Positions 7,231-26,696 of a stretch of 64,000 bases of DNA are shown one piece after another; the stretch's first letter is position 1, and each line of letters begins with the position of its first letter. A program made the translations under genes and the position numbers. The notes beneath the pieces are model-generated. The model saw nothing but the letters and a program-made list of their open reading frames with translations. It did no database searches and was not told the origin of the DNA. Source of the stretch: Arenibacter hampyeongensis. GTDB taxonomy: Bacteria; Bacteroidota; Bacteroidia; Flavobacteriales; Flavobacteriaceae. The stretch lies in NCBI RefSeq assembly GCF_002909255.1, contig NZ_PIOB01000001.1, forward strand, positions 124,001 through 188,000, given 5' to 3'.

Positions 7231-7254
7231 ATTTAAAGTAATATTGTTTCTAAA

Positions 7255-7270: not shown

Positions 7271-7311
7271 ACTTATGTAAGTTCTTTGTGCTCGACAAAA
7301 ACTAATATAAA

Positions 7312-8517: not shown

Positions 8518-8525
8518 CAAAAAAT

Positions 8526-8541
8526 ATAACCTTAAGATAAC
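8526..8541 (+). promoter_or_regulatory. Candidate Pho box upstream of the PiT transporter
   Basis: ATAACCTTAAGATAAC repeats TAAC with an 11-base period and shares 13 of 16 positions with the motif at 7255-7270. A third half-site-like GTTAC follows at 8542-8546. Its presence suggests that the transporter has its own promoter in addition to read-through from the porin gene. Confidence 0.5.
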
Positions 8542-8590
8542 GTTACGAACCTAGAGACTTTAGATATTTACAAACTATTTTTATAAGATA

Positions 8591-10858: not shown

Positions 10859-10885
10859 TAAGATCAATGACTATATAAAGAGTAT

Positions 10886-11599
10886 ATGAAATATGTATTC
10901 CTAATTGTCTTTTTTGGTTGTATTTCATGTTGTATTGGGCAAAATATAGGAGGAACGGAGCTTCTGGAAAAGGCCATTTCCTATCATGACCCCAATGGCC
11001 GTTGGAGTTCGTTTAAGGGTAACTTTAGTGTCACTATGGAATCCCCAAAAGGGGACAAAAGAAAAAGCCACATAGCAATTGATCTGCCGGCCTCCAGTTT
11101 TAAATTGACCACAAATAGGGACAACAATGCCATAGAACAAACTGTGGACAAGGGTGAATGTCTTGTAACTCTTAACGGCATTACAAATATTTCAGATGCT
11201 GATAAGGCCGCTCATAATATCTCTTGTGAACGGACAAAAAAAATGAAGGACTATTACACCTATCTCTATGGACTTCCCATGAAATTAAGAGATCCCGGTA
11301 CCATTATTGAATCCCGTGTGGAGACCAAAACCTTTAAGGGCAAGAAATACCTGAGACTTAAAGCAACATACTCAAAAGAAGTTGGGACTGATACTTGGTA
11401 TTTTTATTTTGACCCAACGTCCTATGCCATGGAGGTCTATCAGTTTTTTCATGATGAATCCCAAAATGATGGGGAGTACATTTTACTGTCAGGCGTAGAA
11501 ATCATAAATGGCATTAAAATGCCCAAGACCAGGGCATGGTATTACAACAAAAATGATCAATATCTGGGGACGGATGTCCTAGACCAAAACTCCAATTAA
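10886..11599 (+). CDS. DUF6503-like exported protein
   Basis: Predicted periplasmic or surface protein of 237 residues with a signal peptide (residues 1-18, ending CCIGQ). The pattern SYHDPNGRWSSFKGNFSVTMESPKG and the later YYTYLYGLPMKLRDPG, WYFYFDP and GIKMPKTRAWYYNKNDQYLGTD are typical of the DUF6503 family in Bacteroidota, whose fold is probably LolA/LolB-like (a lipid-binding half-barrel). Its function is unknown. It is 27 bases after the PiT gene and may be its operon partner. It meets nadD tail-to-tail with one base between the stops. Confidence 0.72.
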   Translation: MKYVFLIVFFGCISCCIGQNIGGTELLEKAISYHDPNGRWSSFKGNFSVTMESPKGDKRKSHIAIDLPASSFKLTTNRDNNAIEQTVDKGECLVTLNGITNISDADKAAHNISCERTKKMKDYYTYLYGLPMKLRDPGTIIESRVETKTFKGKKYLRLKATYSKEVGTDTWYFYFDPTSYAMEVYQFFHDESQNDGEYILLSGVEIINGIKMPKTRAWYYNKNDQYLGTDVLDQNSN

Positions 11600-11600
11600 A

Positions 11601-12188
11601 CTATCTATAAAAATTCATTTCATCCATATACTTCCACACGCCTTCTGGCAATAAGGGTCTAATATTTTTGCCCATTTTATGTTGTGCCCTTATAAAAGTA
11701 GATGATATTTCCATGATAGGGGCCGCAACATGATGTATCTTGGCATGGTCTCTAAATCTTTGTTCTACTTCCCCTTCCGAAATCCTGGGGTAGACGTAAA
11801 TGGAATGATTTTCCAGAATAACCTCAAAGTTCTTCCATTTGTGCAAGCCTTTTAAATTGTCCTCCCCCATAATCAAACAGAAATCATGATCAACTTCATA
11901 TTTTTCCTGCAAATACGCCAGGGTATTTACGGTATAATTGGGTTGTGGTAGGTCGAACTCAATTTTGCTCGGTTTTAATTTTGGATAATCATGGGTGGCT
12001 TCAACTACCAATTGATAACGATGATGATTGTCCAGCAGGGTCTTTTTGGTTTTAAAGGGACTTTGAGGGGTTACTACAAACCAGACCTCATCCAAGTCGG
12101 AAAATTCCACCATATGATTGGCAATCACCAAATGCCCAATATGAATTGGATTAAAAGTACCGAAATAAAGCCCTATTTTCTTAATCAT
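11601..12188 (-). CDS. nadD: Nicotinate-nucleotide adenylyltransferase
   Basis: Transfers AMP from ATP to nicotinate mononucleotide to make deamido-NAD in NAD biosynthesis. The nucleotidyltransferase signature GTFNPIHIGHLVIANHM (HxGH, residues 10-26) and the C-terminal ISSTFIR motif are intact. Length is 195 residues, as expected. It is the last gene of a minus-strand series yicC-gmk-nadD, a common arrangement in Flavobacteriaceae. The spacing to gmk is 83 bases. Confidence 0.95.
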   Translation of the reverse strand: MIKKIGLYFGTFNPIHIGHLVIANHMVEFSDLDEVWFVVTPQSPFKTKKTLLDNHHRYQLVVEATHDYPKLKPSKIEFDLPQPNYTVNTLAYLQEKYEVDHDFCLIMGEDNLKGLHKWKNFEVILENHSIYVYPRISEGEVEQRFRDHAKIHHVAAPIMEISSTFIRAQHKMGKNIRPLLPEGVWKYMDEMNFYR

Positions 12189-13834: not shown

Positions 13835-14206
13835 CTAATTGATTGGGCTCCCACTATTTAACCGTTTACCGCTTTTGTCAAAATGAAACCTGAATTGCCT
13901 CTCGCACCAAAATATACCCACAAACATGGCAACAACCAGGAAAAAAAGGGAAACACCCAAGGCCCAATTTGGAGAAATGAAATAGGTGGCAGTACCGACC
14001 GTTAGGGTGGACACACCCACAAAAAACATCATTTTGGCTCCAATTTTGTTGCCAAAATCCCAAGTCTCCTGGTTCCTCATGCTTTTCCAGGTGCGATAGC
14101 CATAAATAAAATTTATATTTTTGGGAGGGTATGCTCTATAGAACAAGGCAAAAATCATTAATAGCAGGCTGGGAGCTGTGGCTCCAATGAATAACGCCCA
14201 TTCCAT
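13835..14206 (-). CDS. SdpI-like membrane protein
   Basis: Integral membrane protein of 123 residues with three hydrophobic segments (about 4-21, 57-77, 82-100). The segment NFIYGYRTWKSMRNQETWDFGNKIGAKMM matches the SdpI family motif (GxRTxxSxxNxETWxxAN). In Bacillus SdpI gives immunity to the SdpC toxin; most members have no known role. The gene starts at the base immediately after the stop codon of the DUF1080 gene, so it is probably the last gene of the sugar operon that begins at 16900. Confidence 0.78.
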   Translation of the reverse strand: MEWALFIGATAPSLLLMIFALFYRAYPPKNINFIYGYRTWKSMRNQETWDFGNKIGAKMMFFVGVSTLTVGTATYFISPNWALGVSLFFLVVAMFVGIFWCERQFRFHFDKSGKRLNSGSPIN

Positions 14207-15028
14207 CTAAAGCTCCCGCACCCAAATATTCCTATAACTCACCCTGCTATTGTCCCCATGGTCCTGTAGTTTTAAAGGACCCTTGCCATGGGCTGGATTC
14301 TTGGGCCAGCCTATATAAGGTGTTGTTCCCTTAATTTCAACATGGTCCTGTACCAGAACACCATTATGCAAAACCGTTACTGTTCCCGATCTAATTTTAT
14401 TCCCATCCTTATCGAACTCGGGCGCATGATAAATGATATCATAGGTATTCCATTCCCCGGTTGGTACGGAGGCCTTGGCAAGAGGAGTATGTTGCTTGTA
14501 TATGGAACCCACTTGGCCATTAACATAGGTATCGTTATCGTTATTGTCCAAAACCTGAACCTCGTACAGGCCTTGTAGAAAAACGCCGCTATTGCCCCTA
14601 CTTTGCCCTTTGCCCTGAATTTCCGCAGGAGACTTCCATTCCAGGTGCAATTGCATACTGCCAAAATTTTGAACAGTTTGTATATCCCCAGTCTTGTTAT
14701 TGACCGTCATACTACCGTCATTGTTTACAAACCATTTGGCCGCAGTGCTATCCCTTGAAGATATCCAATTGTCCAGATTTCCTCCTCTAAAGAGTACAAT
14801 GGCATCACTTGGAGCTCCTTTTATTGGGTCATGTGGATTTACGACAGGCGGCACCGGCTTATAGAATTCGGTCTCCTCAGGAGTAGTAGGCTCTGTACCG
14901 GAGTATTCACCAGGAACCTCAGTATCTTTCTCAATTGCCTTTGGCTCCAATGGGTCCACGGTAATCTTTTCCTTACAGGCGAACGCCAATATCAATATAA
15001 AAGTGATATAAATAGATCTCATTTTCAT
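14207..15028 (-). CDS. DUF1080 lipoprotein (3-keto-glycoside lyase/hydratase family), copy 1
   Basis: Exported lipoprotein of 273 residues: signal peptide with lipobox ILAFAC, then a Pro/Glu/Thr-rich linker, then the DUF1080 (PF06439) jelly-roll domain from about residue 75. Visible family features are VLFRGGNLDNWISS near the start of the domain, LHLEWKSPAEIQGKGQSRGNSGVFLQGLYEVQVLDN, TGEWNTYDIIYHAPEF and the end GPLKLQDHGDNSRVSYRNIWVREL. Characterised DUF1080 proteins cleave 3-keto-glucosides by elimination or hydrate the resulting 3-keto-2-hydroxy-glucal. Nineteen bases separate it from the second DUF1080 gene upstream; the pair may carry out the two steps. The substrate is not known. Confidence 0.85.
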   Translation of the reverse strand: MKMRSIYITFILILAFACKEKITVDPLEPKAIEKDTEVPGEYSGTEPTTPEETEFYKPVPPVVNPHDPIKGAPSDAIVLFRGGNLDNWISSRDSTAAKWFVNNDGSMTVNNKTGDIQTVQNFGSMQLHLEWKSPAEIQGKGQSRGNSGVFLQGLYEVQVLDNNDNDTYVNGQVGSIYKQHTPLAKASVPTGEWNTYDIIYHAPEFDKDGNKIRSGTVTVLHNGVLVQDHVEIKGTTPYIGWPKNPAHGKGPLKLQDHGDNSRVSYRNIWVREL

Positions 15029-15047
15029 AGACTTATCTAGTATTGGA

Positions 15048-15830
15048 TCAGTCCAATGATTTTATCTTAATATTTCTGTAGGACACAATGTCCCCATGAT
15101 CTTGCAATCCAATCCTGCCGGTCTTATATTTTCCAAAATGCTCCGACCCTTTAAATTTAGACTTGTCGATCATTGCCTCCCATTCCTCTCCATGTACCGG
15201 GAAAGAAGCTATTTCCGTACCATTCAACACTACATTCCCTTTATTGGTTTTATGATTTACCGTAATAACACAGGTGTTCCATTCCCCAACAGGTTTGGTT
15301 ACGTCCTCACTAGGACCAACCATATCGTACAAAGCCCCTGCCTGTCTTACAGGTCCATTTTTTGCGTCAGGGTGTTTTTCATTGTCCAATACCTGTATTT
15401 CCGGTCCGGAATGGTAGGCCTCCGGAAGACTTTCCACCTCTTTAACGCCCCAAAAAATACCGCTATTTCCGCCTTCTGAAATTTTCCAATCTACGGATAG
15501 TACAAAGTTGGTAAAATCCTCCTTGGTCACCAAGTTGTATTTCTCCCCTTTTTTACGCTCTTTTGGTGGATAGTATACCATGGCACCATCCTCGATTTTC
15601 CATGCATCCCCAACACCATCTTCCAAATACCGCTTCCAGGCATCGAAGTTGGTTCCGTCAAAAAGTACTTGCCATTCCCCTGCAATTGGAGCTGGTGGAG
15701 GTGGGGGTGGAGTTACTTTTTCGGAATTTGCCAAAGGATCGGAGTCTATGTCCATGTTTTTCTTATCCGTTTTATCCTTGCAGCCCATAACCATAACGGC
15801 TATCAAGGCACTAAATATCAATTTTTTCAT
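15048..15830 (-). CDS. DUF1080 lipoprotein (3-keto-glycoside lyase/hydratase family), copy 2
   Basis: Lipoprotein of 260 residues with lipobox VMGC and a polyproline linker (PPPPPPAP, about residues 41-48) before the DUF1080 domain. The domain shows EWQVLFDGTNFDAWKRYL, FVLSVDWKISEGGNSGIFWGV, GPEIQVLDNEKHPDAKN, PVGEWNTCVITVNHKTNKGNVVLNG and the end RIGLQDHGDIVSYRNIKIKSL. It differs clearly from copy 1, so the two probably have different roles in 3-keto-sugar breakdown (lyase versus hydratase, as inferred from the family). It lies 17 bases downstream of the TIM-barrel gene and 19 upstream of copy 1. Confidence 0.86.
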   Translation of the reverse strand: MKKLIFSALIAVMVMGCKDKTDKKNMDIDSDPLANSEKVTPPPPPPAPIAGEWQVLFDGTNFDAWKRYLEDGVGDAWKIEDGAMVYYPPKERKKGEKYNLVTKEDFTNFVLSVDWKISEGGNSGIFWGVKEVESLPEAYHSGPEIQVLDNEKHPDAKNGPVRQAGALYDMVGPSEDVTKPVGEWNTCVITVNHKTNKGNVVLNGTEIASFPVHGEEWEAMIDKSKFKGSEHFGKYKTGRIGLQDHGDIVSYRNIKIKSLD

Positions 15831-15847
15831 TTCCTTATTTATTTATT

Positions 15848-16900
15848 TTAAAGTCCTAATATTTTCTTTAATACTGTTTTATCTATAGCTGCCCCTGCAA
15901 AATCGTCAAAGGTCTTTTCCGTAGCCTCAATGATATGATCCTGGATGAACTTGGCACCTTCCCTAGCCCCCTGTTCCGGACTCTTAATGCAACACTCCCA
16001 TTCCATTACCGCCCAAACATCACAGCCATATTGGGTTAATTTGGAGAAAATGGACTTAAAATCTATCTGTCCATCACCCAACGATCGATATCTACCTGCG
16101 CGGTCACCCCAATCATTAAAACCACCAAAGGCTCCTTTTTTGCCAGTTGGGTTAAATTCCGAATCCTTAACGTGAAACGATTTTATAAACTCGTGGTAAT
16201 GGTCTATATAAGTAATATAATCCAACTGCTGAAGTACAAAATGACTTGGGTCGTACAAAATATTAACTCGTTTATGGTTCCCGGTAGCGGCCAAGAATCG
16301 CTCAAAGGTATCCCCGTCATGAAGATCCTCGCCTGGGTGGATTTCATAACATACATCCACACCTTCCTTGTCAAAGTGATTTAGAATGGGCAACCATCTT
16401 TTTGCCAATTCTTCGAAGCCCATCTCTACCAATCCCGCAGGTCTCTGCGGCCATGGGTGGGCGGTATGCCATAGTAGTGATCCCGAGAAAGTGGCATGTG
16501 CATTTAGTCCGAGCCTACGACTCGCCGTGGCTCCTTTTTTAACAACATCAATGGCCCATTCGGTACGTGCCTTTGGATTGTTCTTCACCTTGTCCGGCGC
16601 AAAATTATCGAACATAAGGTCGTAAGCAGGGTTCACCGCCACCAATTGTCCTTGCAAATGAGTAGACAACTCGGTTATTTCCAAACCATAAGAATTTATC
16701 TTTCCCTTTAACTCGTCACAGTAGGTCTGACTCTCGGCAGCCTTATCCAAATCGATTAAAAAATCTACCCAAGTTGGAATTTGTATTCCTTTATATCCCA
16801 GATCGGATGCCCATTTACACATGCCATCCAACGAATTGAATGGTGCTTTTTCATCTACAAATTGTGCTAAAAATACTGCCGGCCCTTTAATTGTCTTCAT
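15848..16900 (-). CDS. Sugar phosphate isomerase/epimerase-like TIM-barrel protein
   Basis: Cytoplasmic protein of 350 residues of the xylose-isomerase-like TIM-barrel superfamily (AP endonuclease 2 fold). Metal-ligand motifs are visible in order: CYEIHPGED, ILYDPSHFVLQQLD, SFHVKDSEF and VMEWECC. There is no signal peptide. In oxidative glycoside pathways such proteins isomerise or hydrate 3-keto sugars, which fits its place as first gene of an operon with two DUF1080 genes and an SdpI-like gene. It is divergent from the first GMC oxidoreductase, and the 144-base gap carries two inverted repeats. Confidence 0.85.
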   Translation of the reverse strand: MKTIKGPAVFLAQFVDEKAPFNSLDGMCKWASDLGYKGIQIPTWVDFLIDLDKAAESQTYCDELKGKINSYGLEITELSTHLQGQLVAVNPAYDLMFDNFAPDKVKNNPKARTEWAIDVVKKGATASRRLGLNAHATFSGSLLWHTAHPWPQRPAGLVEMGFEELAKRWLPILNHFDKEGVDVCYEIHPGEDLHDGDTFERFLAATGNHKRVNILYDPSHFVLQQLDYITYIDHYHEFIKSFHVKDSEFNPTGKKGAFGGFNDWGDRAGRYRSLGDGQIDFKSIFSKLTQYGCDVWAVMEWECCIKSPEQGAREGAKFIQDHIIEATEKTFDDFAGAAIDKTVLKKILGL

Positions 16901-16946
16901 TTTAAATTTTTATTAAGTGTAATTGAAAATAACCCTTGTTAACATT

Positions 16947-16962
16947 TAGGATAAAAATCCTA
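16947..16962. promoter_or_regulatory. Inverted repeat in the divergent TIM-barrel/GMC gap
   Basis: TAGGAT (16947-16952) and ATCCTA (16957-16962) form a perfect 6-bp inverted repeat around AAAA. It lies just upstream of a weak -7-like element (AAAGTTTG, 16968-16975). It could be an operator or a chance AT-rich repeat. Confidence 0.35.
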
Positions 16963-16971
16963 TATTTAAAG

Positions 16972-16992
16972 TTTGTAGCATATGCCTACAAA
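16972..16992. promoter_or_regulatory. Candidate operator: 7-bp inverted repeat before the first GMC gene
   Basis: TTTGTAG (16972-16978) and CTACAAA (16986-16992) are perfect inverted arms around CATATGC. The left arm overlaps the end of a -7-like element, so a repressor bound here would block initiation. The regulator is not identified in the window. Confidence 0.45.
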
Positions 16993-17044
16993 TGCGAAGT
17001 CATAAATATAGGAAAAGCATCAGAATTAATACAAGAAATATAGA

Positions 17045-18748
17045 ATGAATCAAAGCGAAATGTTTGATGCCATTGTTGTAGGTACCGGTATTAGTGGAGG
17101 TTGGGCAGCTAAAGAACTTTGCGAGAATGGGTTAAAGACTTTGGTGCTGGAAAGAGGACCAATGGTAAAGCATATCGAGGATTACCCCACAATGAACGAT
17201 GACCCATGGGATTATCCATTAAAGGGTAAATTATCCAAAGCCGATAAAGAAAAATATCACATACAAAGTAGGTTGAATTGGGCACCGGATGAGAGCAATA
17301 AGCATTTCTTTGTAAACGATTTGGAGCATCCTTATGTTCAAACCAAACGATTCGATTGGATAAGAGGATATCAGGTAGGCGGGCGTTCCTTAACATGGGG
17401 AAGACAGAGTTACCGTTGGGGCGATATTGATTTTGAAGCCAATAAAAAAGAGGGCATCAGTGTTGATTGGCCTGTTCGTTACAAGGATATTGCGCCATGG
17501 TATGACAAAGTTGAAGAATACATAGGGGTCAGTGGTCAAGCCCTCGGGCTAAAACAATTGCCAGACGGTAAATTTCAACCCCCCATGAAATTGAATTGTG
17601 TAGAGGAAGACTTTCAAAAATCCATAGCAGAAAAATTTGATGATGGCCGTTTGGTGACCATTGGCCGTACGGCACACATTACAGATCCAAATGCAGATTT
17701 TGAAGGTCGCGGAGTGTGTCAAAATCGAGATAGATGCTCGCGTGGATGCCCTTTCGGAGGCTATTTTAGCAGCAATTCATCCACTTTGCCGGCCGCAGAA
17801 AGAACAGGTAATATGACGCTCAGACCCAATTCCATAGTATGCGAAGTCGTCTATGATGATAAAACAAAAAGAGCGACCGGAGTAAAAGTGATAGATGCGG
17901 AAACCAACGAAAAAATTGAGTTCAAGGCCCGTATTATTTTTCTTTGTGCTTCAGCCATGGCTTCCGTAGGTATATTATTGCAATCAAAAAGTGAACGCTT
18001 CCCGAATGGTCTTGGAAATGACTCTGATGCCTTGGGTAGAGGGATCATGGACCATCATTATAAATTAGGGGCAACCGCTAAAGTGGATGGATATTTGGAC
18101 AAATATTATAAAGGTCGCCGTGCCAATGGTTTTTATATTCCCCGATTCGTAAATATGGACGAAAAGACCAAACGCGATGGGTATATTCGAGGATTCGGTT
18201 TTCAAGGTACGGCCAGTAGAGGCGATTGGTCTGAAGCCATTGGGGAATTGGGATTTGGAAAAGAACTCAAAGAAAGCATTCTAAAGCCAGGTCATTGGAC
18301 GATCGGTGTCACCGGATTTGGAGAATTCCTCCCATATGACGATAACAGGGTTTCTTTAAGCCCTACAGAAAAAGATAAATGGGGGCTTCCACAATTGGCA
18401 TTTGATGTTGAATTCAAGGAGAACGAGCTGAATATGCGCATGGATATCAAAAAAGTTATTGTAGAGATGTTTGAAGCGGCAGGGTTTAAAGATGTACAAT
18501 CCTATGAGGAACCTTCCGGGCCTGGATTGGGAATACATGAAATGGGCGGTGCCCGCATGGGACATGATTCCAAAACCTCAATCTTGAATAAAAATAATCA
18601 AGTGCATCTGGTTCCCAATGTATATGTCACCGATGGTGCTTTTATGACCTCCTCCAATTGTGTAAATCCGTCGTTGACCTATATGGCATTTACGGCTAGG
18701 GCAGCAAATCATGCTGCCAAACAATTGAAAGAGGGTAAATTTTCATAA
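17045..18748 (+). CDS. GMC-family FAD oxidoreductase (sugar dehydrogenase type), copy 1
   Basis: Flavoprotein of 567 residues. The Rossmann FAD motif VVGTGISGGWAAKEL is at residues 11-25 and the GMC loop GGRSLTWGRQSYRW at 112-125. The C-terminal domain has LGIHEMGGARMG (His498) and SSNCVNPSLTYMAF, which carries the active-site Asn position. A cysteine cluster C225-x5-C231-x3-C235-P resembles the iron-sulfur segment of alpha/gamma-type FAD glucose dehydrogenases. It is probably a glycoside or glucoside 3-dehydrogenase, donating electrons to a carrier rather than O2. No small subunit gene follows, unlike copy 2. It starts the rightward unit, divergent from the TIM-barrel/DUF1080 operon. The substrate is unknown. 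Confidence 0.87.
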   Translation: MNQSEMFDAIVVGTGISGGWAAKELCENGLKTLVLERGPMVKHIEDYPTMNDDPWDYPLKGKLSKADKEKYHIQSRLNWAPDESNKHFFVNDLEHPYVQTKRFDWIRGYQVGGRSLTWGRQSYRWGDIDFEANKKEGISVDWPVRYKDIAPWYDKVEEYIGVSGQALGLKQLPDGKFQPPMKLNCVEEDFQKSIAEKFDDGRLVTIGRTAHITDPNADFEGRGVCQNRDRCSRGCPFGGYFSSNSSTLPAAERTGNMTLRPNSIVCEVVYDDKTKRATGVKVIDAETNEKIEFKARIIFLCASAMASVGILLQSKSERFPNGLGNDSDALGRGIMDHHYKLGATAKVDGYLDKYYKGRRANGFYIPRFVNMDEKTKRDGYIRGFGFQGTASRGDWSEAIGELGFGKELKESILKPGHWTIGVTGFGEFLPYDDNRVSLSPTEKDKWGLPQLAFDVEFKENELNMRMDIKKVIVEMFEAAGFKDVQSYEEPSGPGLGIHEMGGARMGHDSKTSILNKNNQVHLVPNVYVTDGAFMTSSNCVNPSLTYMAFTARAANHAAKQLKEGKFS

Positions 18749-18809
18749 CATCCTTCGAGAAATAATTAATGTATTTTACCGTTACTGTTAAAACTTAGAC
18801 CTAATTAGA

Positions 18810-19271
18810 ATGGACAATGCTTCGGCTAGAAATATGTGGGGTGATTTTTTAGACGCCCACTTGGAATTTGCTTTTGAGGAAGCACCTAAAGTGTTTCACT
18901 TTAGCGACAATGAACAAGATGCAGACCAGGTAGTGAATCTAGTCATCAAAAACCTTAAGAAAGCGGCCTCTTTTTCCCTATTGGGCCTTCAATACCGAAA
19001 AGAGCCACTTCCTAAAATAGGTGCCTTTATGATTATTACAGATTGGAACGGCAAAGCCAAGTGCATCATAAGGACCAAATCCGTAAAATTGAAGCCATTT
19101 TTTAGTATTAGCACGGATTATGTACAATTGGAGGGCTTAGGGGACAAAAGTCTAGAGCACTGGAAAAAATACCATTGGAATTATTTCACCCGTGAATTGG
19201 CCCCTTATGAACGTGTTCCCAGAGACAGCATGATCGTTGTTTGTGTAGAGTTCGACAAAGTTTACGGGTAA
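18810..19271 (+). CDS. ASCH domain protein
   Basis: Small cytoplasmic protein of 153 residues. The features of the ASCH beta-barrel (PUA-like) superfamily are visible: MWGDFLDAHLEF at the N-terminus, PLPKIGAFMIITDWNGKAKCIIRTKSVKLKPF in the core, and the C-terminal SLEHWKKYHWNYFTREL. Relatives bind or modify RNA or nucleosides. It is 61 bases after the GMC gene and may be co-transcribed, but a functional link is not evident. A hairpin that could terminate in both directions follows. Confidence 0.8.
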   Translation: MDNASARNMWGDFLDAHLEFAFEEAPKVFHFSDNEQDADQVVNLVIKNLKKAASFSLLGLQYRKEPLPKIGAFMIITDWNGKAKCIIRTKSVKLKPFFSISTDYVQLEGLGDKSLEHWKKYHWNYFTRELAPYERVPRDSMIVVCVEFDKVYG

Positions 19272-19298
19272 TCCTCGGGACTTATAATATATTAATAA

Positions 19299-19324
19299 GA
19301 AATGGCCGCTATTGCGGCCATTTC
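19299..19324. terminator. Hairpin between convergent genes
   Basis: Perfect 11-bp stem (GAAATGGCCGC with GCGGCCATTTC) around a TATT loop. It lies between the convergent ASCH and Gfo/Idh/MocA genes. Neither side has a strong T run, so its efficiency as a terminator is uncertain. Confidence 0.6.
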
Positions 19325-19344
19325 CATATCAAATTCATCTCCAT

Positions 19345-20481
19345 TTATTTCAAATCGATCCAAATATTGCCTTTTTTGTTGGACTCCACCGTACTTTCAA
19401 TAAAATCCAGACCGCGAACCCCATCCAGCATAGTTGGGAATTCACCATCGTTATATTTTTCACCTCTAATTGCCCTTGCAACACCTAAATAAATATTGGC
19501 CATAGAATCAAAAATTCCTTCAGGATGTCCTGGAGGTAATTTAGTTCCTGCCAAGGATAACTTAGAATTATACGCATGGCCAGGCTTGTAGACCTGAAGA
19601 GGTTTATCATCACTTAAGACATACAGAGAATTGGGATTCTCCTGCTCCCATCTAAGGCCACCCTTCTCTCCGTAAATAGCAATGGAAAGTCCGTTTTCTT
19701 CCCCAGTAGCCACCTGACTAGATCGAATAACCCCTTTCACATGCTTGTCCATACGGATCAATACCGTACCGTCTACATCCATTTGATTATCCTCATATAA
19801 ATAATTGAAATCTGCCAAAATGGACTTTATTGTCAAACCGGTCGTATACTCGATCATATTGAAGGCATGAACCCCAATATCCCCCATACATGAACTGATT
19901 CCGGCTTTTTTGGGATCTAATCTCCAAACGGTTGAACGTTTGGCCTTATCATGGATAATGGAGTTGATCCAACCTTGATAATATTGTGCATCTACCTTGT
20001 GTATTTTTCCAATAGCCCCGGCCTTTATCATCTCGCGCATTTGTCTAACCATGGGATACCCGGTATAGGTATGGGTAACCGCAAAAACGGTTTTTGACTT
20101 TTCCAAGGTTGCCTGTAAAATTTTAGCTTCCTCATAGGTGGTGGTCATAGGCTTTTCACAAATGACATGGAACCCGTTTTCCAGTAACTTTTTGGCCATA
20201 GGAAAATGCAAAAAGTTAGGAGTAAGTACAGAACATACCTGAATACGTTCTTCCTTGGGAAGTTTCAATTCCTCCTCTACCAAGGTGTCAAAATCCTTAT
20301 AGATCCTATTGGTAGGCACGTCTATTTCCTCGGCAAAAGCAACATTCGCTTCAAAGTCCGGATTAAAAACTGCGCCAACAATTTCGTAATTATCATTAAT
20401 CTGTGATGCCACTCTGTGCAACACTCCAATAAGGGAGTCTCCTCCACCCCCTAAAATTCCTAGTTTAATTTTTTTACCCAT
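19345..20481 (-). CDS. Gfo/Idh/MocA family oxidoreductase
   Basis: NAD(P)-dependent sugar dehydrogenase-like protein of 378 residues. The Rossmann segment is KLGILGGGGDSLIGV (residues 5-19). The diagnostic EKP motif is in HVICEKPMTTTYEEA, and the substrate-site DxGxH motif is in CMGDIGVHAFNMIEY. It has no signal peptide. Members of this family oxidise or reduce sugars at C2, C3 or other ring positions and occur in 3-keto-glycoside loci, which fits the surrounding genes. It is the last gene of a tight minus-strand operon (TIM barrel, DinB, MFS, this gene) with an 17-base gap to the MFS gene. Confidence 0.9.
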   Translation of the reverse strand: MGKKIKLGILGGGGDSLIGVLHRVASQINDNYEIVGAVFNPDFEANVAFAEEIDVPTNRIYKDFDTLVEEELKLPKEERIQVCSVLTPNFLHFPMAKKLLENGFHVICEKPMTTTYEEAKILQATLEKSKTVFAVTHTYTGYPMVRQMREMIKAGAIGKIHKVDAQYYQGWINSIIHDKAKRSTVWRLDPKKAGISSCMGDIGVHAFNMIEYTTGLTIKSILADFNYLYEDNQMDVDGTVLIRMDKHVKGVIRSSQVATGEENGLSIAIYGEKGGLRWEQENPNSLYVLSDDKPLQVYKPGHAYNSKLSLAGTKLPPGHPEGIFDSMANIYLGVARAIRGEKYNDGEFPTMLDGVRGLDFIESTVESNKKGNIWIDLK

Positions 20482-20498
20482 AATATAATTGTTCCTAA

Positions 20499-21728
20499 TT
20501 ACTCTTTATATTCTACTTCTTCGTTTTTAAAAAATATTGCGAACAGTACCATTGCCCCAAATGCAAAAATAGCTGGAAAAGTCCAAATATCCGTCCAGTT
20601 GTGAACACCTTCACTTAACAAATAACTATCCGTTATTCTTCCGGCCACCCAAAAACCTATCAGCATTCCAACGCCATAGGTCGCCAAGGTAATTAAACCT
20701 TGGGCCGCGCTTTTAAATTTATCACCCGCCTTTGAATCCGTATAAATCTGCCCGGATACAAAGAAAAAATCATAGCAAATACCGTGTAGTGCAATCCCCA
20801 ATATTAACATAAAAGCCAAATCTCCACCATTTCCATATGCAAAAAGGAGATATCTAATGGTCCAAGCCAGCATCCCGGCGATCATGGTCTTTTTAAATCC
20901 AAATTTCTTAAAGAAATACGGCAATAACAACATAAACAAGACTTCTGAAACTTGGCCAAGCGTCATTATTCCCGTGGGATTTTCCATTCCAATCTCCGAT
21001 AAAAATGGATTTGCGTTTTGATAATAAAAGGCCAGTGGAATACAAATCAAAATGGATGAGACAAAGAATATAAAGAAATTTCTATCCTTTACAAGTTTTA
21101 GTGCATCCAGTCCCAAAATTTCTGAAATGGACACCTTTTCATTTGTTTTAACCTTTGGAGGTGTTTTAGGTAAGGTAAAACTAAAAAGCCCCAGAATGGC
21201 CGAAGCGATCACCACCATTAAAAAGGTATTTCTCAATAGGCCTTCGCCCCTAGAGGCTTCGGAATCCCACAGGAATACATAACTAATTATTAAACCGGCG
21301 GCTATCCAACCTATGGTACCAAAAACCCTCACAAATGAAAATTCCTTGGCCGGATTCTTCATCTGACTAAAGGAAATTGAATTGACCAAGGCCAAAGTAG
21401 GCATATATAGAATCATGTATCCAAGTACATAGGGATAAAAACCTGCAAAGTCGACGGCTGTATACATCTGGTACATCATAACGGCACCCAGTAGATGCAA
21501 CACCCCTAAAATGCGCTCCGCATTAAAATATCTATCGGCGATCAATCCTATAATAAAAGGGGCTATAATTGCACCCCAGGATTGCGTTGAATACGCCATT
21601 GCCGATTCCGCTCCCGTAGCCCTGAGGTTTTGCCCCAAGAACGTGCCAAGCGTCACGAACCATCCCCCCCAAATAAAGAATTCAAGGAACATCATTATGG
21701 ACAACTGTACTTTGGTTTTAACATTCAC
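20499..21728 (-). CDS. MFS transporter of the nucleoside:H+ symporter type
   Basis: Inner-membrane permease of 409 residues with 12 predicted helices. The N-terminus MNVKTKVQLSIMMFLEFFIWGGWFVTLGTFL and the following GLIADRYFNAERILGVLHLLGA loop match the NupG/XapB-type nucleoside permease branch of the major facilitator superfamily, which in Bacteroidota often travels with sugar or glycoside genes. Here it most likely imports the sugar or keto-sugar made or cleaved in the periplasm; a true nucleoside substrate is possible. Its neighbours in the operon are DinB (15 bases upstream) and Gfo/Idh/MocA. Confidence 0.86.
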   Translation of the reverse strand: MNVKTKVQLSIMMFLEFFIWGGWFVTLGTFLGQNLRATGAESAMAYSTQSWGAIIAPFIIGLIADRYFNAERILGVLHLLGAVMMYQMYTAVDFAGFYPYVLGYMILYMPTLALVNSISFSQMKNPAKEFSFVRVFGTIGWIAAGLIISYVFLWDSEASRGEGLLRNTFLMVVIASAILGLFSFTLPKTPPKVKTNEKVSISEILGLDALKLVKDRNFFIFFVSSILICIPLAFYYQNANPFLSEIGMENPTGIMTLGQVSEVLFMLLLPYFFKKFGFKKTMIAGMLAWTIRYLLFAYGNGGDLAFMLILGIALHGICYDFFFVSGQIYTDSKAGDKFKSAAQGLITLATYGVGMLIGFWVAGRITDSYLLSEGVHNWTDIWTFPAIFAFGAMVLFAIFFKNEEVEYKE

Positions 21729-21743
21729 GGTTCAAAAGGGTAT

Positions 21744-22187
21744 TTATCGCTTATAAAAAGCATAATCCAAGACCAGGGGTTCAATGGAGTTATTTCTAAA
21801 ATCAACGGAAATTTGGGCCCTATGATGGGTTGAGTGGTTTATGATATGAAATAACATATCCTGAATGGTATTGGTAAACAACCTACCTTGGGTATTCTCA
21901 TAGTCCAATCGCTTTTCAAAACTATCCACATTGGTAATTATCTCAAAAGAGCTTCTTTGATTTTCGTAATGTATATCTCCCCAATCCTTTAGCGGCTGTA
22001 ACTGAAAAACGCCATACTCTATTTTTTTACCAAGAATCCTGGCATTCCATATATGGTGGGCATTTAAAATATGACTAAAGAGCTCCGTTGTCCTATCTGG
22101 AACCTGTTCCAGCTTTTGGCACTCTTCAATCAATTTCTTATTGCAGTAAAAGTTATAATCGAAAAGCTGATTGAAAAAAGCCTTCAT
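21744..22187 (-). CDS. DinB-fold metalloprotein
   Basis: Small protein of 147 residues of the DinB/YfiT four-helix bundle family. The start MKAFFNQLFDYNFYCNKKLIEEC and three potential metal-binding histidine sites are visible: LNAHHIWNARI and FHIINHSTHHRAQI. Such proteins bind a divalent metal; many act as thiol-dependent transferases or have no known role. It sits inside a sugar operon, 11 bases after the TIM-barrel lipoprotein gene and 15 before the MFS gene, which suggests co-regulation. Its function there is unclear. Confidence 0.83.
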   Translation of the reverse strand: MKAFFNQLFDYNFYCNKKLIEECQKLEQVPDRTTELFSHILNAHHIWNARILGKKIEYGVFQLQPLKDWGDIHYENQRSSFEIITNVDSFEKRLDYENTQGRLFTNTIQDMLFHIINHSTHHRAQISVDFRNNSIEPLVLDYAFYKR

Positions 22188-22198
22188 AGGATATAATG

Positions 22199-23188
22199 CT
22201 AATTTAGTTCCTTACCGGCCTTTATCAATAAATCCCTTGTAGCAAGAATTCCTTGCTCCTCACTCAAAACACTACCTTCATATTCCACACCTATGAAACC
22301 AGTATAACCTGCGTCCTTAACCATTTTAAGTATTCTAGGGTAGTCCAATTTCGTTTCATTGCCGTCCGCATCAAAATCATGGGATTTGGCACTTACCGCC
22401 TTGGCATAAGGCATTAATTCCGCTATGCCTTTATAATTGTCATACTCCTCCGCACAGCCATTCTCGGATCTTGTTATGCAGAAGTTTCCAAAATCCGGAA
22501 GGCTTCCGCAATTATCCATATTTACAGCTTTCATCACTTCAGCGTGCAATACCCCATTGGATGACAATCCCCCGTGATTTTCGACCAAAACATTAATATT
22601 CTTGGTTGCCGCATAAGTTGCCAACTTGGTAAGTCCGTCCACGGCATTCACTTTCCATTCCTCGGGAACGCTACTTCCGTTCAGATTTACCCGAATCGCA
22701 TGGCATCCCATTGCCGCAGCAGCGTCCACCCATTTCTTATGTTTTTCTACAGTTTCATTTCTTTCTTTCTCATCGCTAACCGCCAAATTCCCTTGGCCGT
22801 CAATCATGATCAATACATTTTGCAAACCATATTTTTTTGCCTCTGCATTGGATTTCTCAACAAATGCGGCCATGGCCTCCTCTGAATAGTTGGCCTTTTC
22901 CAACTCAGGGTTATATAATTGACTAACATACTCCAGCCCGGTAAAGCCCCAGTTCTTGGCCTTTTCCGCAAAAGTATAGGGATCAACACCATCTTCACGT
23001 ATCATCTTATGTATGGACCACTGGGCCAACGACAATTTAAAAAATGGATCTGCAGTCTTCATGGCTACCTCTGAGGCCTCCATATCCTTTGGCTGCTCCT
23101 TAGGAGCGTCCTTACAGGAAAAGACACCCATAAATAAGGCTATTAAAACTACCTTAGTTCCATTGATTTTTAAATTTTTACACTTCAT
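22199..23188 (-). CDS. Exported TIM-barrel sugar isomerase/epimerase-like lipoprotein
   Basis: Xylose-isomerase-like TIM-barrel protein with a lipoprotein signal (lipobox VFSC, then an acidic KDAPKEQPKDME linker). It is about 329 residues from the ATG at 23188. A longer reading from a TTG at 23212 adds eight residues and spoils the compact signal peptide, so I prefer the ATG. Ligand-like motifs are VLVENHGGLSSNG, LPDFGNFCI, AKSHDFDADG and FIGVEYEGS. The predicted location is periplasmic or on the outer membrane. It heads the operon with DinB, MFS and Gfo/Idh/MocA and is divergent from the second GMC gene; the gap holds two palindromes. Confidence 0.86.
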   Translation of the reverse strand: MKCKNLKINGTKVVLIALFMGVFSCKDAPKEQPKDMEASEVAMKTADPFFKLSLAQWSIHKMIREDGVDPYTFAEKAKNWGFTGLEYVSQLYNPELEKANYSEEAMAAFVEKSNAEAKKYGLQNVLIMIDGQGNLAVSDEKERNETVEKHKKWVDAAAAMGCHAIRVNLNGSSVPEEWKVNAVDGLTKLATYAATKNINVLVENHGGLSSNGVLHAEVMKAVNMDNCGSLPDFGNFCITRSENGCAEEYDNYKGIAELMPYAKAVSAKSHDFDADGNETKLDYPRILKMVKDAGYTGFIGVEYEGSVLSEEQGILATRDLLIKAGKELN

Positions 23189-23224
23189 AATACGTTTTGA
23201 GATTAAATCCAAGAATTAACAATT

Positions 23225-23240
23225 ACTATAACGTTATAGT
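23225..23240. promoter_or_regulatory. Candidate operator: 16-bp perfect palindrome with CG centre
   Basis: ACTATAACGTTATAGT is a perfect palindrome with a central ACGT, the form typical of LacI-family operators. It is in the divergent gap between the TIM-barrel lipoprotein gene and GMC copy 2, so it could control both operons. No LacI gene is in the window. Confidence 0.5.
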
Positions 23241-23288
23241 GTCATAGTATTAATAAATATAGGGTTTAAATGTAGAAAATTAATTTTA

Positions 23289-23310
23289 TATTTAATAAAT
23301 TTATTAAATA
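23289..23310. promoter_or_regulatory. 22-bp perfect AT palindrome before GMC copy 2
   Basis: The half-site TATTTAATAAA (23289-23299) is followed directly by its exact reverse complement (23300-23310). It ends 13 bases before the GMC start codon. It could be an operator or a hairpin in the leader; the base composition (all A/T) lowers its weight. Confidence 0.4.
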
Positions 23311-23323
23311 AACAATTTCATAA

Positions 23324-25036
23324 ATGAGCAAGATTTATAGCAATGAAGTGCAGGATTCTTATGATGCAATTGTCGTAGGTACGGGGATTAGCGGAGGGTG
23401 GGCCGCCAAGGAGTTATGTGAAAAAGGACTCAAAACCCTAGTTTTGGAGCGTGGAAGAATGGTAAAACACATCGAAGACTACGAAACTGCCAATTTAGAC
23501 CCCTGGGACTTTCCGAACGCCGGAGAACCTACCAAGGAAGATGTTGCAAAACAACCTAAACAGAACAGAACAGGTTATACCACAAATGCTGCCAGTAAAA
23601 TGTGGTTTGTAAATGACCTGGAGCACCCCTATAATGAAATAAGGCGATTTGATTGGATGAGAGGTTACCACTTAGGTGGGCGTTCATTACAATGGGGACG
23701 GCAAAGTTACCGATGGAGCGACATCGATTTTACCGCCAACCAAAAGGACGGTATTGCAGTTGATTGGCCGGTACGCTATAAGGATATTGCACCATGGTAC
23801 TCTTTGGTGGAAAACTATATTGGAGTTAGTGGAGAGGCACTTAACCTACCTCAACTACCGGATAGTGATTTTTTGCCTCCCATGGAAATGAATTGTGTTG
23901 AAGAACATTTTAAGAATAAAGTTACAGAAGGTTTTGACGACCGTGCCGTTACCATAGGCCGTGTGGCGCATATTACCGGGACCAAAAATTTTGACGGACG
24001 CACCAAATGTCAATACAGAAACCGCTGTATAAGAGGGTGTCCTTTTGGAGGCTACTTCAGCAGTTTGTCATCTACCCTGCCAGCGGCAGAAGCAACAGGA
24101 AACATGACCTTACGAACAGACTCTATTGTTCATGAAGTAATATATGATCCCAATACCAAGAAAGCTACAGGGGTAAAGGTTATAGATAGGTTGACCAAGG
24201 AAACTTTTGAATTTAAGGCAAAGGTTATTTTCTTATGTGCCTCATCCATAGCTTCCACTTCCATATTAATGCAATCCAAATCTGACCGATTCCCAAATGG
24301 TATGGGCAATGATTCAGATCAACTGGGCCGCAATATTATGGACCACCATTTAGGTGTAGGTGCTTCCGGTAAATTCGATGGTTTCGAAGACAAATATTAC
24401 AAGGGCAGAAGACCTAATGGAATATATATTCCAAGATTTAGAAACCTTGGTGGAGATTCCGATAGAAAAGATTATAAACGTGGATTTGGTTATCAGGGTG
24501 GAGCCAGTAGGGGCAATTGGGAAGAAACGGTTGCAGAACTTTCTTACGGAAAAGACCTTAAGGACAATATACTTAACCCTGGAGGCTGGAGAATGGGCAT
24601 CGGTGGATTTGGCGAAGTGCTCCCTTATGAGGATAACAGAATGACCTTGGATTACGATAAATTGGATGGCTGGGGACTTCCTACTGTAACCTTCGATGCC
24701 GATTTACAGGAAAACGAATTCAACATGCGTAAAGATATGCAGCAATCTGCAATAGAAATGCTGGAAAAAGCAGGATTACGAGATGTCAAAGGGCATGATG
24801 GACCAACAGGTTTAGGTTTGGGAATTCATGAAATGGGCACGGCCAGGATGGGGCGCAATAGAAAAACCTCCGTGCTTAATGGGAACAATCAATTACATGA
24901 TGTACCAAATGTTTATGTAACTGATGGGTCATTTATGACTTCGGCCAGTTGTGTTAACCCATCATTGACTTATATGGCCTTCACAGCTAGGGCCGCTGAC
25001 CATGCGGTCAAAGAACTTAAAAAAGGAAATATATAA
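23324..25036 (+). CDS. GMC-family FAD oxidoreductase (sugar dehydrogenase type), copy 2
   Basis: Catalytic subunit-like flavoprotein of 570 residues, closely similar to copy 1 along its length. FAD motif VVGTGISGGWAAKELCEKG is at residues 17-35, and GGRSLQWGRQSYRWSDIDF follows. The C-terminus has LGIHEMGTARMGR and ASCVNPSLTYMAFTARAADHA. The cysteine cluster C229-x5-C235-x3-C239-P is conserved with copy 1. It has no signal peptide of its own. Its stop overlaps the start of a gluconate 2-dehydrogenase subunit 3-like gene, as in two-subunit glucose or glucoside 3-dehydrogenases, where the small Tat-exported subunit carries the large one to the periplasm. Confidence 0.9.
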   Translation: MSKIYSNEVQDSYDAIVVGTGISGGWAAKELCEKGLKTLVLERGRMVKHIEDYETANLDPWDFPNAGEPTKEDVAKQPKQNRTGYTTNAASKMWFVNDLEHPYNEIRRFDWMRGYHLGGRSLQWGRQSYRWSDIDFTANQKDGIAVDWPVRYKDIAPWYSLVENYIGVSGEALNLPQLPDSDFLPPMEMNCVEEHFKNKVTEGFDDRAVTIGRVAHITGTKNFDGRTKCQYRNRCIRGCPFGGYFSSLSSTLPAAEATGNMTLRTDSIVHEVIYDPNTKKATGVKVIDRLTKETFEFKAKVIFLCASSIASTSILMQSKSDRFPNGMGNDSDQLGRNIMDHHLGVGASGKFDGFEDKYYKGRRPNGIYIPRFRNLGGDSDRKDYKRGFGYQGGASRGNWEETVAELSYGKDLKDNILNPGGWRMGIGGFGEVLPYEDNRMTLDYDKLDGWGLPTVTFDADLQENEFNMRKDMQQSAIEMLEKAGLRDVKGHDGPTGLGLGIHEMGTARMGRNRKTSVLNGNNQLHDVPNVYVTDGSFMTSASCVNPSLTYMAFTARAADHAVKELKKGNI

Positions 25037-25683
25037 TGGATAGAAGAAAAGCACTTAAAAATATGGGGCTGGCGTTAGGATACACCGTAGCCACCCCAAC
25101 CCTGATCAGCATCGTTCAAAGTTGTAAAAAGGACGCTGCAATTGTATGGACCCCAGATTTTCTAACATCTGCTGAAGGATCTGTTCTAACCCATTTGGTA
25201 GATATTATACTTCCAAAAACCGATACTCCTTCTGCCTCCGAGGTACAGGTGCATATCTTCATAGATCGCTTTGCCGACCAGGTAATGGAAAAGGAACAGC
25301 AGGATCTGTTAAGGATGACCATGGGGAAATTTATGGACAAGGCCTTGCAGGACTCAGGCAAGAAGGAAATTGCTGACCTAACTCCAAAAGAACTGGAACC
25401 AGTCCTTGCCAATGCGCTAAAAGTTTCGAAAGAAGATGAGGCCAAAAACTTCAAAGCAATAAACACTTATACGGAGGCTGTAAAGGCTGGTAAAACGGCC
25501 ACCTTGGATGACGGACTATCCAGGTTTTCCTTCACCAATAATTTGAGAGGTCTAACAATTTGGGGCTATAAGTCATCAGAATTTGTCGGCGAGAATGTAT
25601 TACCTTATTTACCTGTACCAGGAGAATACATTGGATGCGGAGATCTTCAAGAATTAACTGGGGGAAAGACCTGGTCACTGTAA
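25036..25683 (+). CDS. Gluconate 2-dehydrogenase subunit 3-like small subunit (Tat lipoprotein)
   Basis: Small subunit of 215 residues. The N-terminus MDRRKALKNMGLALGYTV carries a twin-arginine signal, and the hydrophobic stretch ends in VQSC, a likely lipobox. The domain then follows with LTHLVDIILPKTDTPSASEVQVHIFIDRF, the usual opening of PF13618, and ends with LRGLTIWGYKSSEFVGENVLPYLPVPGEY. It starts on the last base of the GMC stop codon (TAATG), so translation is coupled and a 1:1 complex is likely. In known complexes this subunit is needed for export and folding of the GMC subunit. An associated cytochrome c is not seen in the window. Confidence 0.9.
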   Translation: MDRRKALKNMGLALGYTVATPTLISIVQSCKKDAAIVWTPDFLTSAEGSVLTHLVDIILPKTDTPSASEVQVHIFIDRFADQVMEKEQQDLLRMTMGKFMDKALQDSGKKEIADLTPKELEPVLANALKVSKEDEAKNFKAINTYTEAVKAGKTATLDDGLSRFSFTNNLRGLTIWGYKSSEFVGENVLPYLPVPGEYIGCGDLQELTGGKTWSL

Positions 25684-25781
25684 ATTAACAACTAATCATG
25701 AGCTATTAGAGCAAGGTTGGTCCATAGACCACTTAGTTCTATTAGCATTATTTTATAACAAAATTCCAACCTTATCCTAAA

Positions 25782-26696
25782 ATGAAAAGAAGAGATTTTA
25801 TTCAAAAAACAGCCCTTACCAGTAGTGCAGTTACATTGGGAGGCTCCTTAGCTTATGGAGCCGGACCTATAATGAAAACAAAACACTCGTTCAACTTAAA
25901 ATATGCCCCTCATTTTGGGATGTTTAAAAACCTTGCAAGTGATGACCTTATTGACCAAATAAACTTCATGGCCGATCAAGGGTTTACGGCGTTTGAAGAC
26001 AACGGCATGATGGGCAGGGACGTGGCAATGCAGACCAAAATAGGAGAAACCTTAGCCAAACGCAATATGACCATGGGTGTTTTTGTTATAGACAAAGGAG
26101 GAAATATGGCAAACACCCTTGCTGCGGGAAAACAGGAATATATTGACATTTTTTTGGATGGTTGTAAGCGAGCTGTTGAAGTGGCCAAACGTGTAAATGC
26201 CAAATGGATGACCGTTGTTCCGGGCGGATTTGAAAGAAAACTACCGATCGGTATTCAGGATGGAAACGTAATTGAAGCATTAAAAAGAGGTGCCGAGATT
26301 CTAGAACCCCATGGCTTGGTCATGGTATTGGAACCTTTATCCGATTCTCCCGATCTATATTTGCAGAATTCAGATCAGACTTATATGATTTGTAAAGGCG
26401 TAAATAGCCCTTCCTGCAAAATATTGTTTGACATCTACCATATGCAGAAAACCGAGGGTCATTTGATTCACAATATGGAACTTACCTGGGATGAAATAGA
26501 CTATATTCAAATAGGGGATAATCCAGGAAGAAAAGAACCCACTACCGGGGAAATTAATTACAAAAATGTCTTCAAGTTTATACATAACAAAGGATTTAAA
26601 GGAGTCTTGGGTATGGAACACGGCAATTCCAGACCCGACAAGGAAGGGGAACTGGCGGTTATAAACGCTTATAAGTCCGAGGACAATTTTTTGTAG
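25782..26696 (+). CDS. Hydroxypyruvate-isomerase-like TIM-barrel protein (Tat signal)
   Basis: TIM-barrel protein of 304 residues. It has a twin-arginine signal (MKRRDFIQKTALTSSAVTLGGSLAYG), so it is probably exported folded. The barrel contains FEDNGMMGRDVAMQTKIGE, WMTVVPGGFER, LVMVLEPLSDSPD, KILFDIYHMQKTEGHL, YIQIGDNPGRKEPTTGEINY and GVLGMEHGNSR, the order of metal-binding acidic and histidine residues in hydroxypyruvate isomerase and related epimerases. It stands 98 bases after the small-subunit gene in the same direction and completes this branch of the sugar cluster. A short inverted repeat (TGGTC/GACCA, 25718-25731) lies in the gap. Confidence 0.86.
   Translation: MKRRDFIQKTALTSSAVTLGGSLAYGAGPIMKTKHSFNLKYAPHFGMFKNLASDDLIDQINFMADQGFTAFEDNGMMGRDVAMQTKIGETLAKRNMTMGVFVIDKGGNMANTLAAGKQEYIDIFLDGCKRAVEVAKRVNAKWMTVVPGGFERKLPIGIQDGNVIEALKRGAEILEPHGLVMVLEPLSDSPDLYLQNSDQTYMICKGVNSPSCKILFDIYHMQKTEGHLIHNMELTWDEIDYIQIGDNPGRKEPTTGEINYKNVFKFIHNKGFKGVLGMEHGNSRPDKEGELAVINAYKSEDNFL

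Follow-up and report, generated by a model that had tools for sequence, protein, structure and literature searches.

A conserved gene cluster of Arenibacter hampyeongensis that probably encodes a non-hydrolytic, 3-keto pathway of glycoside breakdown

How could a bacterium break down glycosides with a gene cluster that holds no glycoside hydrolase? This question is raised by a stretch of 64,000 nucleotides of the marine flavobacterium Arenibacter hampyeongensis (contig NZ_PIOB01000001.1, positions 124,001 to 188,000; the whole stretch is called the window in the following and all coordinates refer to it). According to the list of open reading frames (ORFs) and a Pfam scan of the cluster proteins, 13 intact, Pfam-supported ORFs lie between positions 13835 and 26696. 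An original prediction, made from the sequence alone, had described positions 14207-26696 as an oxidative (3-keto) glycoside breakdown locus; the genes it named are present as intact frames with Pfam support at or beside these positions (an SdpI-like gene lies just to the left), and its remark that a classical glycoside hydrolase is missing holds for the 13 cluster proteins, among which the Pfam scan finds neither a glycoside hydrolase nor, unlike in SusC/SusD polysaccharide utilisation loci, a SusC/SusD pair. With a probability of somewhat more than three in four we think that the locus encodes a four-step non-hydrolytic (3-keto) glycoside pathway, which would extend over two compartments.

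In the first step the glycosyl unit would be oxidised at C3 in the periplasm by the GMC oxidoreductase GMC2 (23324-25036, forward strand), the proposed catalytic subunit of a glycoside 3-dehydrogenase, together with its proposed carrier, the Tat-type small subunit G3 (25036-25683, forward strand; its start overlaps the end of GMC2), and the electrons would pass to an acceptor encoded elsewhere. Lipoprotein lyases would then split off the aglycone by elimination, so that a 2-hydroxy-3-keto-glycal remains; candidates for this step are the two DUF1080 lipoproteins a (14207-15028) and b (15048-15830) and, probably, the TIM-barrel lipoprotein TIMlp (22199-23212), all encoded on the reverse strand. 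The 2-hydroxy-3-keto-glycal would be taken up by the MFS permease (20499-21728, reverse strand; Nuc_H_symport, PF03825, E 1.4e-117), a proposed importer of keto-glycals or keto-sugars. Finally, the cytoplasmic TIM barrel HYD (15848-16900, reverse strand) would hydrate the glycal to the 3-keto-sugar, which the likewise cytoplasmic Gfo/Idh/MocA oxidoreductase GFO (19345-20481, reverse strand; PF01408/PF22725) would reduce to an ordinary hexose with NAD(P)H. The individual reactions and their sequence, like the function of TIMlp and the nature of the imported compound, are inferred. Inspected by eye, the N-termini of the DUF1080 proteins and TIMlp fit lipoproteins, those of G3 (MDRRKALK) and of a third TIM barrel, TIMtat (MKRRDFIQ), fit the Tat type, and in HYD no signal peptide is visible. 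This agrees with the earlier assignment of the three TIM barrels to the cytoplasmic, lipoprotein and Tat compartments.

The chemistry as such has already been published. The same four-reaction logic is found in the GlycDH/AtOGE/AtHYD/Gfo operon of Agrobacterium tumefaciens, where a TIM-barrel hydratase and a Gfo/Idh reductase likewise lie beside the gene of the oxidant. Passages of the Agrobacterium study describe oxidation, elimination, hydration and reduction, the hydration on evidence which its authors call preliminary (PMC10628242). The present locus differs from it in the lyase slot, which would be filled by DUF1080 lipoproteins and a Glu-x-His TIM barrel and not by a His-x-His OGE (AtOGE is compared by its description), and in the Tat-type and lipoprotein signals which place oxidation and cleavage in the periplasm. 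For Caulobacter crescentus, passages of a further study describe lacABC with a DUF1080 protein and show the importance of a transporter, a pair of epimerases and a reductase for lactose use (PMC9007349). Going by this partial description, the set of dehydrogenase, DUF1080 protein (CCNA_01705), transporter, epimerases (apparently of TIM-barrel type) and reductase resembles the one found here; unlike for the three-component LacABC dehydrogenase, there is no c-type cytochrome gene in our window. A 3-keto route of Bacteroides has reportedly been presented in Nature and Angew. Chem. papers in 2024. The DUF1080 protein BT2157 of Bacteroides thetaiotaomicron is named 3-ketotrehalose hydrolase in passages of PMC9007349, in which a 3-keto route is also in part supported genetically for Pedobacter, and further passages on the BT2156-BT2160 system are found in PMC11300592; in passages of PMC11501099, BT2157 and BT2158 mutants have no growth defect on raffinose-type sugars. 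By description this system is similar to ours in its DUF1080 protein and, as far as these passages go, different in its oxidant, BT2158 being a periplasmic Gfo/Idh-type glycoside 3-dehydrogenase and not a GMC enzyme with a small subunit. No prior description of the locus in Flavobacteriaceae was found among the open-licence literature matches listed; new here are the assignment of roles, the one-operon history, the distribution in the family and the proposal that TIMlp may be a lyase.

Is the grouping of these genes conserved? Outside the genome itself HYD has 100 matches; for 80 of them we retrieved the surrounding sequence of about 20 kb and counted the ORF families; all 80 loci contain HYD by selection and some are truncated by contig ends. 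GFO is present in 79 of the 80 loci, an MFS gene of either kind in 78, a GMC gene in 76, TIMlp in 75 and G3 in 74, and the full set of HYD, GFO, TIMlp, GMC, G3, MFS and DUF1080 in 64, so that the same gene set, which the original prediction had suggested looking for in other Flavobacteriaceae, does recur. One strand carries HYD, GFO, MFS and TIMlp in this order and the opposite strand a GMC gene in 71 of the loci, and we therefore conclude that the grouping is not due to chance. DUF1080 ORFs were labelled in 74 loci and lie in 72 of them on the HYD strand and downstream of HYD, and this suggests a cleavage step. Nothing in the neighbourhoods inspected hinted at an unrelated substrate. The second way into the cassette, via TIMlp, gave 80 named loci (many on short contigs), including Arenibacter, Zobellia, Maribacter, Cellulophaga, Robiginitalea and Aquimarina, with HYD matched in 71, GFO in 75, G3 in 74 and GMC2 in 78.

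At the genome level, HYD is found (E up to 1e-50) in 101 of the 199 genomes sampled from the family, each with a single match except one (G004) with two equal ones, and some of these genomes measure merely 1.2-1.8 Mb; in a phylum-wide sample it was 73 of 395 (E up to 1e-60). G3 is found in 112 of the 199 family genomes. DUF1080 is present in all 101 HYD-positive genomes versus 31 of the 98 HYD-negative ones, with a median count of 5 versus 0 (kinship between genomes is ignored in both comparisons, and counts near 15 are lower bounds). The core of the original prediction, periplasmic C3 oxidation by the GMC enzyme and its small subunit followed by non-hydrolytic cleavage by DUF1080 proteins, is supported.

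The best-supported function of the locus is the one we propose for HYD. Over its full length, 223 of 349 residues (64%) are identical to PDB entry 8ro4, deposited as 2-hydroxy-3-keto-glucal hydratase, which we take to be AtHYD of Agrobacterium, and the residues E186, H188, D217, H243, E300 and E302 are invariant in 81 of 81 sequences. By this likeness HYD would be a 2-hydroxy-3-keto-glucal hydratase and not an isomerase. Since the best hydratase candidate is this cytoplasmic protein, hydration probably takes place after import. In five loci from Maribacter and its kin (L074 and L135-L138) HYD is just 82-84% identical to that of the window, the neighbouring genes being of the usual similarity, and L074 sits in another clade on the HYD tree; the hydratase gene of these loci was probably replaced by a foreign copy.

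The two DUF1080 lipoproteins are indeed as unlike as predicted, sharing 35% identity. Protein a (PF06439, 131 bits) is of the 4qhz type (E 1.3e-79) and protein b (163 bits) matches 8rr2 (E 5.9e-34), deposited as '3-keto-disaccharide hydrolase domain-containing protein', and 8tda (E 6.3e-34). In the numbering of b, Glu144 and Gln146 do not differ among the 125 aligned sequences. His245 of the same numbering is shared by all 59 b-type sequences and by 47 of the 48 a-type ones, the remaining one having a gap, and is replaced by Glu in 18 of 18 sequences of a third type. Nineteen ORFs were labelled as being of this third type; in 12 loci such an ORF comes immediately after G3 in the same orientation, a link between DUF1080 and the GMC pair. 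Passages on the B. thetaiotaomicron 3-keto-O-glycoside lyase state that its variant H275N still eliminates and is deficient in hydration (PMC13273386). His275 may correspond to the conserved QDHG His of proteins a and b. Possibly both proteins hydrate as well, and the third type may cleave only.

What, then, is the role of TIMlp? A profile search returned 4ovx (E 7e-114), then the C-glycoside deglycosidase subunit DgpC1 (9m3b, 2.5e-13), 7xrf and 7bvr. With the AlphaFold model (mean pLDDT 87.7, residues 1-52 disordered) Foldseek also placed 4ovx first (TM score 0.96 on the target), and ranks 2-10 were all C-glycoside deglycosidase chains with 16-23% identity. The fold alone does not decide between lyase and epimerase, because sugar 3-epimerases follow just behind at E values of about 1e-11. 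In the active site E211 and H213 align with E141 and H143 of DgpC, the motif being E211-N-H213 in 76 of 76 sequences versus E141-V-H143. Passages of PMC10628242 and PMC13273386 assign the catalytic role in PuCGE to His143. E211, H213, D240, S274, E310 and E312 are invariant in all 76 TIMlp sequences. The match with the deglycosidases DgpB-DgpC, DfgA-DfgB and CarB-CarC is not perfect, as TIMlp is a lipoprotein and has Ser274 throughout in place of the metal-binding His of strand beta-7, so that the full Glu/Asp/His/Glu metal site is not found. Nor was a small-subunit family of the deglycosidase type seen among the 13 Pfam-annotated cluster proteins, the search for such a partner being confined to the cluster. 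By its active site and fold TIMlp probably cleaves 3-keto-glycosides alongside the DUF1080 proteins. Its true start is probably the ATG 8 codons inward. In Arenibacter amylolyticus (L143, 10001-11011) the frame matched to TIMlp is interrupted by two stop codons, perhaps because the gene is broken or because the match joins separate pieces.

Like HYD and TIMlp, TIMtat (25782-26696, forward strand; PF01261) is an AP_endonuc_2 protein in the Pfam scan; it matches 3ngf (E 1.8e-17) and 1k77 in the PDB and shows the pattern E184-P-L186, D217, Q243, E279 with neither a Glu-x-His motif nor the catalytic His. This E/D/Q/E metal pattern is presumably that of hydroxypyruvate-isomerase-like enzymes, and among the three TIM barrels TIMtat alone looks isomerase-like. 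It is an optional accessory, present in 35 of the 80 loci. For GFO no specific NCBIfam model matched above its cut-off; it is best read as the closing reductase of the 3-keto-sugar.

These enzymes could also be arranged differently. The DUF1080 pair might both cleave and hydrate in the periplasm, with the three TIM barrels serving as isomerases or epimerases of the keto-sugar around import. The hydration activity that the Bacteroides lyase loses with H275N, the near-invariance of the perhaps equivalent His in types a and b and the isomerase-like TIMtat speak for it. We nevertheless hold this arrangement to be unlikely, as it is at odds with the full-length match of HYD to a deposited hydratase and with the Glu-x-His motif of TIMlp, whose next matches after 4ovx in sequence and fold searches are C-glycoside lyases; with sugar 3-epimerases close behind in the fold search, an epimerase role of TIMlp keeps some probability. 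The isomerisation step of the original prediction is therefore retained for TIMtat at most, HYD being hydratase-like and TIMlp lyase-like; and of the two activities it gave the DUF1080 proteins, lyase and hydratase, the first is kept as a proposal and the second would fall primarily to HYD.

Several observations weigh against the proposed pathway. The closest solved relatives of GMC2 (PF05199/PF00732) are the large subunits of fructose and glucose dehydrogenases (8k6k, fructose dehydrogenase, E 4.9e-37), so its specificity for C3 rests on the gene context. LacABC-type lactose dehydrogenase has a c-type cytochrome subunit encoded alongside; here no CxxCH motif was found in any cluster protein or any ORF of the window longer than 100 amino acids, and the electron acceptor is therefore missing from the window. 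Six of the 80 loci have no labelled DUF1080 gene in the fetched stretch, in which distant copies may be missed. Strong DUF1080 matches (E < 1e-20) occur in 20 of the 31 DUF1080-bearing genomes that are HYD-negative. In Pedobacter, none of 10 DUF1080 genes had a lactose phenotype according to passages of PMC9007349. In a similar cassette on a Pseudoalteromonas plasmid (see below) the GMC protein is 31% identical to GMC2, the G3 match spans 56 residues only, and the MFS protein gave no BLAST match to that of the window.

Some of these points would also fit the salvage of environmental 3-keto or anhydro sugars, for instance levoglucosan-like ones, with GMC enzymes that act on free sugars or alcohols and not on glycosides. 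Besides the solved GMC2 relatives and the six loci without DUF1080, the best NCBIfam match of GFO, levoglucosan dehydrogenase, points in this direction, with 97 bits against a cut-off of 650. The DUF1080 genes of the other 74 loci, with their fixed position behind HYD in nearly all of them, make this salvage very improbable in our opinion. A cyclitol pathway, with GFO as inositol dehydrogenase, HYD as IolE-like inosose dehydratase and GMC enzymes that oxidise cyclitols, was rejected as most improbable, since the matches of HYD to the IolE model TIGR04379 (59 bits; also 3cny, E 2.3e-10) and of GFO to inositol dehydrogenase models are weak, the scores being far below the family cut-offs (59 versus 290; 58 versus 355), whereas 8ro4 matches the whole of HYD and DUF1080 genes are neighbours in 74 of 80 loci.

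Returning to the 3-keto pathway, GMC2 and G3 (PF13618, E 1.2e-27) have the domains of the GMC large and Gluconate_2-dh3-type subunits of LacABC-type lactose dehydrogenase; which Caulobacter Lac protein is which of these subunits is here assumed. In 26 of the 80 loci (L031-L110) the neighbourhood of the cluster includes a gene for an azurin-like lipoprotein, in either of two chromosomal settings; this protein is a possible electron acceptor of the GMC enzyme. A search of the own genome for azurin-like proteins gave weak matches only, in frames of 673 to 1195 codons, plus a 37-residue piece in a 174-codon frame. On contig C26 (L117, L118) cupredoxin-like domains lie inside open frames of 1195 and 673 codons, and in L117 AP_endonuc_2 and Gfo/Idh genes follow the 1195-codon frame within 1.5 kb.

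Does the lyase slot also exist outside the Bacteroidota? Among plasmid records 352 match HYD, 216 of these at 60-80% identity. In the three records inspected, the gene order is Gfo-HYD-MFS-DUF1080-GMC-G3-TIM in Pseudoalteromonas, HYD-Gfo-GMC-G3-TIM without DUF1080 in Ketogulonicigenium (its GMC protein being 56% identical to GMC2) and Gfo-HYD-G3-GMC in Croceicoccus. The TIM-barrel genes in the records opened are labelled 'sugar phosphate isomerase/epimerase'. The TIM barrels encoded next to GMC-G3 in Pseudoalteromonas and Ketogulonicigenium carry His-x-His and not Glu-x-His, the arrangement described for AtOGE (His132 and His134) in passages of PMC10628242. We infer from position and motif that TIMlp and these proteobacterial TIM barrels would occupy the same lyase slot. 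On the Croceicoccus marinus plasmid (L200, 3978-5392) the Gfo-HYD-G3-GMC genes are accompanied by a Glu-Val-His TIM barrel with a DUF6379 protein and GH3 gene next to it; these three may form a C-glycoside deglycosidase set, with which we take DUF6379 to be associated.

TIMlp itself has at least 583 relatives, the closest named one among the matches listed being from Arenibacter catalasegens (91%). It matches 32 plasmid records, two of them, both from Bacteroidota, at more than 40% identity among the 15 matches listed. In the Pontibacter record no cassette gene is annotated nearby, and in Haliscomenobacter Gfo and GMC genes lie about 7 kb from TIMlp with transposase genes in between, so the link of TIMlp to the cassette is not strict in these two.

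Two divergent units had been predicted, and in the window they are present. Leftward operon A consists of HYD, DUF1080 b, DUF1080 a and the SdpI-family membrane protein (13835-14206, reverse strand; PF13630, E 5.7e-14), its last gene; GMC1 (17045-18748, forward strand; PF05199/PF00732), a paralogue of GMC2 with 66% identity, and an ASCH-domain gene (18810-19271, forward strand; PF04266) point away from it. Leftward operon B comprises TIMlp, a DinB-family gene (21744-22187, reverse strand; PF05163), the MFS permease and GFO, and GMC2, G3 and TIMtat point away from it. Between the convergent ASCH and GFO genes lies a hairpin (19299-19324; RNA fold -20.7 kcal/mol, z -5.4), a candidate terminator. 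The ASCH gene between the units and the lack of a small-subunit gene beside GMC1 had gone unmentioned in the original prediction.

As to the origin of this arrangement, HYD and GFO are adjacent with no gene between them in more distant loci and form a single operon there. GMC1 was found between HYD and ASCH in 13 of the 80 loci. The HYD tree has 29 ASCH-bearing rows, the window included, and 28 of these fall inside one group of 30 rows, and the ASCH label changes 4 times versus a mean of 23.9 after shuffling. Because ASCH clusters on the tree and the distant loci lack the insert, the two units are most simply explained as one ancestral operon with a divergent GMC-G3 pair, split later by a clade-limited GMC-ASCH insert. 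As the HYD tree is unrooted, the history may also have run in reverse, by loss of the insert. The SdpI and DinB genes, correctly regarded as extra members before, occur in 14 and 30 of the 80 loci and ASCH in 28; all three are probably clade-limited passengers. An AraC-type regulator was counted in 16 loci.

The genome of A. hampyeongensis contains 27 DUF1080 domains in 23 loci, five GMC genes, four G3 genes and one HYD. Apart from the present locus there are 22 DUF1080 loci, nine of which have a Gfo/Idh gene no more than 5 kb away versus about two expected (binomial p 5.6e-5, uniform placement). In each of four loci, picked before annotation from the better-scoring ones, the neighbouring genes include a Gfo/Idh gene whose product begins in a Tat-like manner (three Arg-Arg, one Lys-Arg). 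Three further GMC-G3 pairs are located on contig C22, two of which flank a secreted His-x-His TIM barrel (L111, C22:80001-100000, at 5739-11868 of that stretch); neither DUF1080 nor HYD was found in the fetched stretch, and some genes farther along look, by eye, like those of KDG kinase, KDPG aldolase and mannonate dehydratase. Possibly the many DUF1080 loci, often beside Tat-like Gfo/Idh oxidants, would release keto-glycals that all pass through one HYD-GFO pair. We tentatively suggest, as a doubtful combination, that TIMlp founds a lipoprotein 3-keto-glycoside lyase family with a Ser-for-His metal site which fills an OGE-like slot, and that the locus is at the same time the single hydration-reduction hub of the genome for its scattered DUF1080 loci. 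Such a hub is not obligatory, because HYD-negative genomes with strong DUF1080 matches exist.

In TIMlp, nearly all copies of the cassette in the Flavobacteriaceae have an enzyme that looks like a putative further kind of sugar lyase, and if this is true, a large family of TIM-barrel lipoproteins would gain a function. The hydratase and reductase genes also suggest a fate for the 3-keto-sugar in lac-type clusters, a question posed in passages of PMC9007349. As HYD is present in about half of the family genomes sampled and the cassette usually comes with it, non-hydrolytic glycoside use may belong to the core traits of these bacteria and have been overlooked.

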